This document shows, in pieces, positions 37,741 through 41,346 of a stretch of 64,000 bases of DNA. A program made the translations under genes and the position numbers. Numbering within the stretch: the stretch's first letter is position 1; every line of letters begins with the position of its first letter. Origin of the DNA: Acidobacteriota bacterium (GTDB lineage Bacteria; Acidobacteriota; Terriglobia; Acidiferrales; UBA7541); assembly GCA_013289585.1 (NCBI GenBank), contig JABCZR010000001.1, forward strand, positions 372,001 through 436,000. Reading direction: 5' to 3'. The notes under the pieces are model-generated. The model worked only from the letters and a program-made list of their open reading frames with translations. It did no database searches and had not been told where the DNA came from.

Positions 37741-40695
37741 TTAGAGCAGCGGCTCGCCGGAATGCGGGACAATCGTATCGCGGGTGGCGTCGCGCAGACG
37801 AATCAATTCGTGCCAGCCCGAACCTTCTTCGCTTGCGCTCGCGCTTCCCGCCGTTCGCGGATAGATTGGTGGCAAAACGGTGATCGTCACATGGCCCGGC
37901 CGCGGCAAGTAAGTGCCGTCGCGTAAAATCTTCCGCGTTCCGGCAAGCGCAACGGGAATAATTGGCGCACCCGTGGCCACGGCCGCCTTAAACGCGCCCA
38001 GTTGAAACGGCCGCACACCGTCTTCTTTCGTAAACGTCCCTTCCGGAAAAACAAAAACGGATTCCCCGTTGCGCAGAAACTCCTCAATTTGCTGTGCCTG
38101 GCGCAGCCGAGAACCCGCATCCGTCCGGTCGAACTTGAGATGTCCCATCTGGTCCAGAAATGTGCCGATGAAGGGCATTCGTCCCACTTCCATTTTCGAA
38201 ACGAAGCGGTAGGGCACGCCAAGGCCGAGCATCAGCGGCAGCACATCGAAGTAACTGGTGTGATTCGACGCATAGATTTTCGCGCCTGGCGTCTCCATAT
38301 ATTCCTTGCCAACCACGGTTACCCGGCATCCGATCAGTACAAACAAACTTTTCAGCGCAGCGGAAGTGAAACGTCCCGCCGCGCGGTGATCCTTGATGAA
38401 TTGCACGATCGTCCAGCTCGGTACGATCCACAACAGGAACACCACGCCGAAGTACAAGCCGTAAAGAACCTCCAGCCCGCGCCTCGCGCCGGCGAGCACG
38501 TCCTGCGCGAGATCGCGCAATGTGCTTCCCGCACCCAGCCGCACAATCTGCAGCCACGCCGGCGCCTTGGATGCCGAGAGCGTCCCCGCTAGATACAACT
38601 GTTTCGTTTCTTCCCGGCGCAATTTTCCGCTCGATGTTTTCGGGATACTGCCCGGCGGTATCAGCTCCACGCGATCCGGCGGCAGTCCCAATCCTGTTGA
38701 CACCAGCTCCGTCACCGCGGCGGCAATCGCGCCCCGCCTCGCCGCATTGCGTTCTCGCGTTTCCGCGACGACCACAAGCTTTTCCGTACCCGCCACGGCG
38801 TCCGACAATCCAAAGGCTACGATACATCCCTTGCGAATTCCCTCGGCGCGCGCCGCCAGTTCTTCCACCTCATGCGGATACAAATTGCGCCCTCCCTTGA
38901 TAATGATGTCCTTCACGCGCCCCGTGACGTAGATTTCGCCGTCAGCGCGGTACGCGCGGTCGCCCGAATTCACCCAGGCGTATTCGCCCTCACCGCTCGC
39001 GGGACCAAGCGGCAGCACAGCCTTGGTCGCTGCTGCGTTGTGGTAGTAACCGCTTGTCGCCGACGGCCCGCGAAACCACAAAAATCCCTCCGTGCGATCC
39101 TCAACTTCATTTCCGGCGTCATCTACGATTCGTACTTGATGTCTCGGGATCGGTCCACCCGACGAGACAAACGCAATCGCCGTCGCATCATTCGGCTCGC
39201 ACGGCACGGCCTGTCCTTGCGAAGCAAATACTTCGCGCTTCACGCGATCGATCAACGGACCGCGGCCCAGCGGCGGCACGGTAACCGCGAGTGTCGCTTC
39301 CGCGAGCCCATATACGGGGAGCTGTGCTTCGCGTCGAAAGCCATAGCTCGCAAATCGATTCGCGAAACGGTCCAGCGTTTCCGGGTTCACCGGCTCAGCG
39401 CCATTCAACGCCGCGCGCCACGAACTAAGATCGACACCCTGAATATCTTTGTCGGCAATCTTTCGAACGCAAAGCTCATAAGCAAAATTCGGCGCGGCAG
39501 AGATTGTTCCGCGATGTTTGTGAAACGCCAGCAGCCAGCGCTCCGGCCGCGTCAGGAAAGCCAGCGGCGACATCACTGCCAGCGGAATGCCGAAATGCAG
39601 CAGCGTTAACCAGGCGCCGATCAACCCCATATCGTGATACAGCGGGAGCCAGCTCACGCCCACGTCATCCGGCCCCAATTGCACAACCTCGCCGACCGCC
39701 CTGATGTTCGCAAGCAAATTCGTATGCGTCAGCACCACACCTTTGGGATCGCCAGTTGACCCGGATGTGTATTGAAGCAGGGCGATGTCGCTGCCTTTGC
39801 GCGCGCGGCTGCCGGCAAGGTGTAGTGGCAAAGCGCCGGGCGAAGGTGGAGGAGCCTTGTCCGCGGCATCAATCAGCTTTTCCGCATCGGCAACTGTCGA
39901 GAGCGAACGCACACGCGGCCGCAGCAGTTTCGCAACAGCTTCCGCGCGGCGAAACGTCAACAGCAGACAGACTTCTGCATTGTTCAAGATCGCCGATTGC
40001 CGCTCCGCGTACTCCTCGATGCGGTCCGCGCGAAACGGCGGATAGATCGGCACGGGGATCGCTCCCGCAAGTAGAATTCCCGCATAAGAAATGAAAAACG
40101 CCCGCGAAGTCGGCAACATCAACGCCACGCGCCCGCCCGCCGGCACGTCGCGCCGCGCAAGCTCTGCCGCGCAACGCTGCGCCGCTGCGTACAACGCGCC
40201 AAAAGTCAGCGTGAAGCTGCGTTCCTCGCCATCGGTGTCTTCGGTGATGAGCAGATGCGCTCTCTGGGCGTCGTGGACCGCGCGATGCCGCAGCACATCA
40301 ATCAGCGTCTCCGCGGAAAATACTCCTGTGTCTGCGGCCTCGCGGTGCAGCTTCTGTGTGGTCACCGAAGCCCGAAGGGCGGAGCCGGCGTCCGTGTCTT
40401 CCAATACCGTTCCCGGCGCATCGAGAATCGCCCGCGCCAGATCATCCGGCGTATTCGCTTCCGCAGCAACACGGTCCGGTAAACGGATGCTGAACGCCGT
40501 CTCCAGCCGTGCCAGCAATTCCACGCGTTCCAGACTGCCCAATCCGAGTTCACGATCGAGCTGCGAACCCCCGCGCAGCAGCGGTAACGCTCCTTGGCTG
40601 CCCAGTTCAGCCAACAACGCGCGAATCTCCTCAAGCACGCGATCGCGCACTGCCGAACTATCGAGTTGTGTGATGGGTGTAGCCACCGGACTCAC
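37741..40695 (-). CDS. Fused acyl carrier protein - fatty acyl-AMP ligase - PlsC-type acyltransferase
   Basis: The 984-residue protein contains three modules. Residues about 15-95 form a carrier domain with the phosphopantetheine Ser54 in LGLGSLERVEL. Residues about 110-720 form an adenylating enzyme of the fatty acyl-AMP ligase type (YTSGSTGDPKG near 306-318, LPVYGLAEATLAV, VNSGDRAYRADGEIYVTGR, IPKTSSGKLRR). After a hydrophobic segment (LYGLYFGVVFLLWIVPSW, about 745-765) comes a 1-acylglycerol-phosphate acyltransferase-like domain with NHTSYFD near 810 and FPEGT near 885. It would activate a fatty acid, load it on its own carrier and transfer it to a lipid acceptor at the membrane. Substrates are unknown. 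Confidence 0.9.
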   Translation of the reverse strand: MSPVATPITQLDSSAVRDRVLEEIRALLAELGSQGALPLLRGGSQLDRELGLGSLERVELLARLETAFSIRLPDRVAAEANTPDDLARAILDAPGTVLEDTDAGSALRASVTTQKLHREAADTGVFSAETLIDVLRHRAVHDAQRAHLLITEDTDGEERSFTLTFGALYAAAQRCAAELARRDVPAGGRVALMLPTSRAFFISYAGILLAGAIPVPIYPPFRADRIEEYAERQSAILNNAEVCLLLTFRRAEAVAKLLRPRVRSLSTVADAEKLIDAADKAPPPSPGALPLHLAGSRARKGSDIALLQYTSGSTGDPKGVVLTHTNLLANIRAVGEVVQLGPDDVGVSWLPLYHDMGLIGAWLTLLHFGIPLAVMSPLAFLTRPERWLLAFHKHRGTISAAPNFAYELCVRKIADKDIQGVDLSSWRAALNGAEPVNPETLDRFANRFASYGFRREAQLPVYGLAEATLAVTVPPLGRGPLIDRVKREVFASQGQAVPCEPNDATAIAFVSSGGPIPRHQVRIVDDAGNEVEDRTEGFLWFRGPSATSGYYHNAAATKAVLPLGPASGEGEYAWVNSGDRAYRADGEIYVTGRVKDIIIKGGRNLYPHEVEELAARAEGIRKGCIVAFGLSDAVAGTEKLVVVAETRERNAARRGAIAAAVTELVSTGLGLPPDRVELIPPGSIPKTSSGKLRREETKQLYLAGTLSASKAPAWLQIVRLGAGSTLRDLAQDVLAGARRGLEVLYGLYFGVVFLLWIVPSWTIVQFIKDHRAAGRFTSAALKSLFVLIGCRVTVVGKEYMETPGAKIYASNHTSYFDVLPLMLGLGVPYRFVSKMEVGRMPFIGTFLDQMGHLKFDRTDAGSRLRQAQQIEEFLRNGESVFVFPEGTFTKEDGVRPFQLGAFKAAVATGAPIIPVALAGTRKILRDGTYLPRPGHVTITVLPPIYPRTAGSASASEEGSGWHELIRLRDATRDTIVPHSGEPLL

Positions 40696-40782: not shown

Positions 40783-41346
40783 TTAGGCGCTCTTTTTCTG
40801 TACTTGCGCCGCAGTAAGGCCTTTCGGGAGCAGCGTTGTGGAGAGGTCCACGCCGGAAAGATCCGCGCCCGTCAAATCCGTTTCGCGCAGAATCGCCACG
40901 CCCATATCCGCGCCGGAAAACTTTGCACCGTTCACATTGGCGAGGCGCAGATTCACGTTGCGCAGTTGCGCTCGCTCGAAATTCACGTTCGAAAGGTCGC
41001 AGCGGAAAAACTCCACTCCGCTGGCCTGCGCTTCTGCCAGATTGGCGCCCGGCAGAATTGCTTCGGTCATATCTGTGTTGCGCAGATCGGCCTTGCGCAG
41101 ATTTGCGCCGGAAAGATCCGCTCCCGGAAGTTTCGCTTTGCGCAGATCCGTCCTCTCGAGGTTGGCGTTGCGAAGAATCGCCCCGCTCAAGTTGGCCCCG
41201 CTCAGGTCCGCGCCGGAGAGGTCAGCTCCGGTCAGGTCCGCCCGCGCCCCGCCGTCTTTCCCGCTGAAAAACAGTTCATGCGCCTCTAGAATCTGCGCGA
41301 GTGTCTTTCCGTTGTGTTTAATACTCTTCGGTTTTCTCAATGCCAT
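40783..41346 (-). CDS. Pentapeptide-repeat protein
   Basis: The 187-residue protein is dominated by A(D/N)LxX repeats such as ADLTGADLSGADLSGANLSG, continuing for about 25 copies and predicting a right-handed quadrilateral beta-helix. A basic leader (LRKPKSIKHNGKTL) precedes it. Some such proteins (Qnr, MfpA) mimic DNA and bind gyrase, but most have no known role; nothing here points specifically to gyrase. It follows the FAAL gene on the same strand after 87 bases (opposite transcriptional order: it lies upstream of it). Confidence 0.9.
   Translation of the reverse strand: MALRKPKSIKHNGKTLAQILEAHELFFSGKDGGARADLTGADLSGADLSGANLSGAILRNANLERTDLRKAKLPGADLSGANLRKADLRNTDMTEAILPGANLAEAQASGVEFFRCDLSNVNFERAQLRNVNLRLANVNGAKFSGADMGVAILRETDLTGADLSGVDLSTTLLPKGLTAAQVQKKSA

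Follow-up and report, generated by a model that had tools for sequence, protein, structure and literature searches.

A 64,000-nucleotide stretch of an Acidobacteriota genome (GenBank assembly GCA_013289585.1, contig JABCZR010000001.1, positions 372,001 to 436,000; hereafter the window) carries one gene that joins an acyl carrier protein (ACP) domain, a fatty acyl-AMP ligase (FAAL) domain, a membrane helix and a PlsC-type acyltransferase domain in a single polypeptide. We consider it probable that this fusion is a membrane-anchored, self-loading acyltransferase, Aas-like in its working and provided with a built-in carrier of its own, with a lysophospholipid as the most likely acceptor. Intact domains, conserved catalytic residues, FAAL features of the kind that rejects coenzyme A (CoA) and a predicted membrane helix can be read directly in the encoded protein, and the fusion belongs to a well-conserved and widespread bacterial family.

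Domain architecture of the fusion protein

When analyzing the reading frame, we found zero internal stops on the minus strand between 37741 and 40695, with many stops on the plus strand of the same interval. The 984-residue translation matched the Pfam families PP-binding (PF00550, residues 47-90, 29.5 bits, cut-off 20.8), AMP-binding (residues 159-551, E value 3e-67) and Acyltransferase (PF01553, residues 791-917, E value 3e-29, 101.7 bits against a cut-off of 23). An AlphaFold2 model built from an input of 51 sequences reached a mean predicted local distance difference test score of 88.9 and a predicted template-modelling score of 0.78, with the helices of the carrier domain placed at residues 13-30, 34-39, 54-68, 74-79 and 83-92. 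Ahead of the PlsC domain, a hydropathy peak (residues 740-758, mean 1.98) lies inside one long model helix (residues 713-765). A preliminary description of the window had claimed that the carrier Ser54, the adenylation motifs and both PlsC motifs are intact in one 984-residue chain, with a membrane segment before the PlsC part. The frame, the Pfam matches and the conserved residues described below agree with the first claim, and the hydropathy peak together with the model helix bears out the second.

CoA-rejecting features of the ligase domain

To which family the ligase belongs was indicated by several comparisons: its best NCBIfam matches were mostly FAAL models, its best matches in the PDB were FAALs, and the first ten Foldseek matches of the structure model were all FAALs (template-modelling scores by target 0.75-0.91). 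According to the available text of an earlier study (PMC8460268), FAALs refuse CoA because a Trp, a Met and a Phe plug the canonical CoA pocket, with a FAAL-specific helix at the pocket mouth and an insertion, the latter known from earlier work, as further CoA-refusing features. In the fusion, the residues W349, M356 and F404 align with the plug residues W224, M231 and F279 of the E. coli FAAL (EcFAAL), and residues 376-384 match EcFAAL R251-P259 at the pocket entry, where the model has a helix at residues 377-382. All 88 homologues retain W349, M356, F404, F380 and P384.

The other AMP-ligases of the same genome gave a useful comparison. A second FAAL, encoded on contig C4, shares the plug, helix and insertion features of the fusion. 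In each of the six remaining ligases all three plug positions are replaced; the FAAL-specific helix is gapped in four of them, with an ambiguous alignment in the other two (the one on contig C2 and one of those on C30), and the insertion after motif A5, found in the fusion and in the C4 FAAL, is largely gapped in all six. Thus, the assignment of the ligase domain to the CoA-rejecting kind of FAAL is well supported by its sequence features, and the ligase of the fusion would be expected to refuse CoA. The preliminary description had also suggested that one protein could activate, carry and esterify a fatty acid while bypassing acyl-CoA. Three intact domains and a FAAL-type ligase make this the natural interpretation, and because FAAL features were found in the ligase, the proposed bypass has a footing beyond the mere fact of the fusion.

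The C4 FAAL itself (L044:5377-8697) is joined to an NAD_binding_4 reductase domain and has a DIP2-like ligase C-domain; it may reduce fatty acids without recourse to CoA.

Conservation of the active centres and distribution of the family

In an alignment of 88 family proteins, the carrier Ser54 is Ser in all 84 proteins that have this column, and Asn811, His812, Asp817, Glu885 and Gly886 of the PlsC domain, together with Lys691 of the ligase, are identical in 88/88. Lys691 is the A10 lysine, whose catalytic role is established for the ANL superfamily. Ser54, Lys691, His812, Asp817 and Glu885 are jointly kept in 84 of the 88 proteins, and a hydropathy peak above 1.6 in the region before PlsC was found in 85 of 88. 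Given this joint conservation of catalytic residues and hydropathy peak, the three active centres and the anchor are under common selection. The carrier column is absent from the frame as read in L037, L054, L106 and L112. Three of these frames (L037, L054 and L112) are truncated at a contig end, and in L106 a carrier-like stretch lies just upstream in another frame, so that either the gene is split or the assembly is in error; no clear natural loss of the carrier domain was found among the 88 aligned proteins. The coordinates of all features are collected in Table 1. The C-terminal helix and tail are conserved as well (L967 in 82/88, R968 in 78/88 and E981 in 81/88).

Table 1. Features of the fusion gene, in window positions, with the observations that define them
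Feature	Position	Strand	Basis
Whole gene, ACP - FAAL - membrane helix - PlsC fusion	37741..40695	-	984 aa, GTG start
Acyl carrier (PP-binding) domain, residues ~13-92	40420..40659	-	Pfam 47-90; weak acyl_carrier model matches; model helices
Ser54, predicted phosphopantetheine attachment site	40534..40536	-	Ser in 84/84 homologues having the column
FAAL domain, residues ~129-708	38572..40311	-	Pfam, NCBIfam, PDB and Foldseek matches
FAAL-specific helix at pocket entry, residues 376-384	39544..39570	-	aligns with EcFAAL R251-P259
FAAL-specific insertion region after motif A5, residues ~469-510	39166..39291	-	comparison with other ligases of the genome
Lys691, A10 catalytic lysine	38623..38625	-	Lys in 88/88 homologues
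Hydrophobic membrane helix (predicted), residues ~740-765	38401..38478	-	hydropathy; model helix 713-765
PlsC-type acyltransferase domain, residues 791-917	37945..38325	-	Pfam; closest solved relative by sequence, 5kym
PlsC motif I NHTSYFD, residues 811-817	38245..38265	-	N811, H812, D817 in 88/88
PlsC motif III FPEGT, residues 883-887	38035..38049	-	E885, G886 in 88/88
C-terminal family-specific helix, residues 959-979, then conserved GEP tail	37759..37821	-	model helix

Of 297 Acidobacteriota genomes sampled, 11 have a near-full-length homologue (own genome counted; the copy in G066 is cut by a contig end), as do, at E values of at most 1e-150, 65 of 369 sampled Gammaproteobacteria genomes (centre genome counted), the class of G312, which carries the Pseudomaricurvus locus L073. 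Thiocystis violacea DSM 208 and Hahella ganghwensis DSM 17046 are examples of cultured strains with a homologue. The family is therefore commoner in the gammaproteobacterial sample than in the acidobacterial one. From 585 relatives in a scan of genome contigs the 80 best were kept, a choice that favours full-length proteins, as does the 1e-150 threshold; they come from Gamma-, Beta- and Alphaproteobacteria, Thermodesulfobacteriota, Nitrospirota, Actinomycetota (including a Mycobacterium and a Rhodococcus), Entotheonella and Acidobacteriota. On a tree of the 88 family proteins, made with a quick method, the window protein clusters with five Acidobacteriota sequences (Shimodaira-Hasegawa-like approximate likelihood-ratio support of 100). 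The Acidobacteriota do not form one group on this tree, which suggests transfer or the presence of several copies.

Proposed mechanism and acceptor

We infer each catalytic step, the transfer within the chain and the acceptor to be as follows. The FAAL domain would convert a free fatty acid to acyl-AMP, and the acyl chain would then be passed onto the phosphopantetheine that the N-terminal carrier bears at Ser54, a group that the cell's own phosphopantetheinyl transferase would supply; the genome encodes one of the ACPS family. The PlsC domain would move the acyl chain to a hydroxyl of an inner-membrane lysolipid, most likely a lysophospholipid, with all steps taking place at the membrane within one chain. 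As the outcome, the membrane would regain free fatty acids and lysolipids without acyl-CoA, whether these stem from turnover, from damage by phospholipases or from the environment, and since the fatty acid would not pass through acyl-CoA, it would not be open to beta-oxidation.

The top model for the PlsC part was TIGR00530 (1-acylglycerol-3-phosphate acyltransferase) with 99.7 bits, below its cut-off of 102.95, followed by the PlsC model PRK15018 (64.7 bits), a lyso-ornithine acyltransferase model (58.8 bits) and an Aas-type model (55.6 bits). The single related solved structure found by sequence was 5kym, a PlsC. As for the acceptor (the ACYLTRANSFERASE question), these matches point to some lysolipid, most likely a glycerophospholipid.

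The same chemistry may instead be directed at a special acceptor, such as a lyso-ornithine lipid, another aminolipid, a glycolipid or a hydroxy fatty acid, and so lead to an unusual lipid. The PlsC part does find matches among the OlsA models (58.8 and 50.8 bits, cut-offs 300), and the acceptor is not fixable from the sequence, but better scores were reached with the lysophosphatidate acyltransferase (LPAAT)-type models (99.7 and 64.7 bits), the 87 gene neighbourhoods described below hold no conserved lipid-biosynthesis genes, and the wide taxonomic spread favours a common acceptor. We therefore regard a special acceptor as rather unlikely. The preliminary description had thought in particular of an unusual membrane lipid and had pointed to those that Acidobacteriota make, a proposal that found no support given a family found in many phyla, the lack of a lipid cluster in these neighbourhoods and a PlsC part closest to LPAAT models. 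Nothing in gene context or distribution points to diabolic, ether or other special Acidobacteriota lipids.

A plain de novo lysophosphatidate acyltransferase, whose own loading module admits exogenous fatty acid, would agree with TIGR00530 as the top model and with a PlsC as the nearest solved structure by sequence. Its genome, however, encodes PlsY and has five PF01553 matches, one of which is a separate, stand-alone PlsC candidate above the TIGR00530 cut-off, and the family is patchy (11/297 Acidobacteriota), so that we hold this reading to be improbable. Because PlsY and the stand-alone PlsC cover de novo phosphatidate synthesis, the fusion gene of the window is likely an additional acylation route. 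The carrier and the ligase could instead work for some other enzyme, or the PlsC part could be inactive, a vestige attached to a loading module. In favour of this stands the usual role of FAALs, which is to supply polyketide or peptide synthases with acyl chains (available parts of PMC11837247 and PMC8460268), but this seems very improbable with N811, H812, D817, E885 and G886 kept in 88/88 and with no polyketide synthase (PKS) or nonribosomal peptide synthetase (NRPS) among the 25 most-matched of 141 families in 85 neighbouring genes.

Other lipid genes of the same genome include a complete LplT-PlsC-Aas fusion (L042:5004-8432, contig C6; PRK08633 1396 bits, cut-off 1221) and an AMP-binding - PP-binding - PlsC fusion of 847 aa (L043:5995-8538, contig C29). 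With the window gene, the genome thus has three different ligase-PlsC fusions. On contig C30 (L045, 8000-25905), two AMP-ligases lie close to a PlsC-like gene, L005, and may represent another lipid locus.

ATG22/UMF1 transporter genes beside the fusion

The gene neighbourhoods of the family were compared at 87 loci, which remained from 90 after L034 and L041 had been dropped as duplicates of L057 and L118 and L068 had been lost at the BLAST threshold; gene calls were greedy longest open reading frames, some of them spurious. No conserved operon or lipid-biosynthesis cluster was found across the 87 loci, and the fusion gene is solitary. We identified 100 co-directional genes within 150 bp of the fusion, 85 of which were scanned with profiles. 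Transporters of the major facilitator superfamily (MFS) made up five of these 85, four of them ATG22, and no other plausible partner recurred; RNB and Metallophos, with three each, look unrelated.

Counting all orientations, an ATG22/UMF1 MFS gene adjoins the fusion in five of the 87 loci (L052, L059, L073, L121 and L124), which lie far apart on the family tree; Pseudomaricurvus alkylphenolicus is one organism with such an adjacent ATG22-type gene. It sometimes overlaps the fusion, stands upstream in some loci and downstream in others, and is once divergent. ATG22 accounts for 5 of 164 immediate neighbours and for none of the 697 genes at positions 2-8 (Fisher p 2e-4). A draw of 62 Gammaproteobacteria genomes, made blind to ATG22, though two cases were known before the test, gave three with ATG22 immediately adjacent (G698, G648 and G440, the last convergent) and a fourth, G405, with ATG22 within 2 kb. 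An ATG22 gene above the cut-off is present in 41 of the 62; in G616, G624, G462, G472 and G650 it lies on the same contig more than 100 kb off, and in the remaining genomes on other contigs. The numbers expected in this draw were about 0.009 adjacent and about 0.06 within 2 kb, giving Poisson probabilities of about 1e-7 and 4e-7, figures that ignore shared ancestry. Another 45 genomes, chosen after four ATG22 neighbours were known, were excluded as a test. In distant lineages, an ATG22/UMF1 gene thus stands beside the fusion more often than by chance.

According to the available text of PMC13170283, LplT binds the acyltransferase domain of Aas. LplT, the transporter that goes with Aas, is an MFS protein too, in that the LplT part of the own-genome LplT-PlsC-Aas fusion matches MFS_1. 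This LplT-Aas parallel suggests that the ATG22/UMF1 neighbours bring in lysolipids. We tentatively raise the possibility, doubtful as it is at present, that the fusion belongs to a two-part system for lysolipid salvage, the second of its kind and of independent origin, in which a carrier-tethered, CoA-free acyltransferase is paired in distant lineages with an ATG22/UMF1 lysolipid importer.

Several observations speak against the roles proposed here. The PlsC domain falls just below the LPAAT cut-off and matches lyso-ornithine acyltransferase models too. The LplT-PlsC-Aas fusion of the same genome would make a second lysophospholipid repair enzyme partly redundant. An ATG22 neighbour is present in only a small share of loci, and the window's own genome has no ATG22 gene above the cut-off, which makes the transporter link inapplicable to the window.

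In the window, a pentapeptide-repeat gene (40783-41346, minus strand) lies co-directionally 87 bases upstream of the fusion gene. An operon of the two was rejected, as the close homologue L046 is without a co-directional gene in the 150 bp around it. The strand of the fusion yielded no promoter-like site, and the other strand one, against 0.8 expected. Downstream of the Nitrospira homologue by 24 bp, a small protein (L051:8112-8480) resembles the diacylglycerol kinase DgkA by eye, a putative likeness for which NCBIfam gave no match.

Comparison with known systems

This kind of family is already known in print: the available text of PMC8460268 (eLife 2021) counts fusions of bacterial FAAL-like domains to lysophospholipid acyltransferases among the unusual arrangements, with functions independent of PKS/NRPS. 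It names these fusions without a sequence, domain order, carrier domain or function; by this description they are of the same kind as the window family and likely identical with it. This was the one mention of such a fusion that we found in the open-access literature, where we found no functional study of one, and the words "PlsC" and "phospholipid" are absent from the available text of a 2025 FAAL review (PMC11837247). The family is thus widespread and apparently without a functional study. The ATG22/UMF1 transporter link is new in that it was not met in the parts of the literature consulted for the fusion. It offers a first testable guess at the cargo of some bacterial UMF1/ATG22 proteins, and if the two-part salvage system exists, bacterial UMF1 transporters would gain a substrate class and self-loading lysolipid repair would have been invented more than once.

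As in HapA, NocH and AmbG, FAAL-ACP didomain loaders that serve natural-product pathways (available part of PMC11837247), a FAAL and its cognate carrier stand in one chain; unlike in these loaders, the carrier comes first, a PlsC domain comes last and no PKS/NRPS lies nearby. If it works as proposed, the fusion would show cleanly whether FAALs contribute to primary membrane metabolism as well as to natural products. The C29 fusion of the same genome unites the same three functions, but in the order ligase-carrier-PlsC and without the FAAL residues.

The closest functional parallel is E. coli Aas, an acyl-ACP synthetase and 2-acyl-glycerophosphoethanolamine acyltransferase, which, in the available text of PMC13170283, has a high-affinity ACP site, charges ACP and uses the bound acyl-ACP on lysophospholipids. 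In both proteins a fatty acid ligase of the AMP-forming type shares one polypeptide with a PlsC acyltransferase, and by this analogy the fusion may work as Aas does. The order in Aas is PlsC then ligase, as judged from model coordinates, whereas it is reversed in the window fusion, where the carrier is covalent and the ligase is a FAAL. The whole fusion reached only 164 bits with the Aas model PRK08633 (cut-off 1221) and 117 bits with PRK06814 (cut-off 1349), while PRK08043 was not among its best 25 models and gave 19 bits against 886 on the PlsC part. Given the reversed order, the other ligase family and scores far below the cut-offs, membership in the Aas or LplT-Aas family was rejected. If the proposed self-loading acyltransferase is real, it would be a second answer to the problem that Aas solves, one that needs neither acyl-CoA nor a diffusing ACP and keeps salvaged fatty acids from beta-oxidation.

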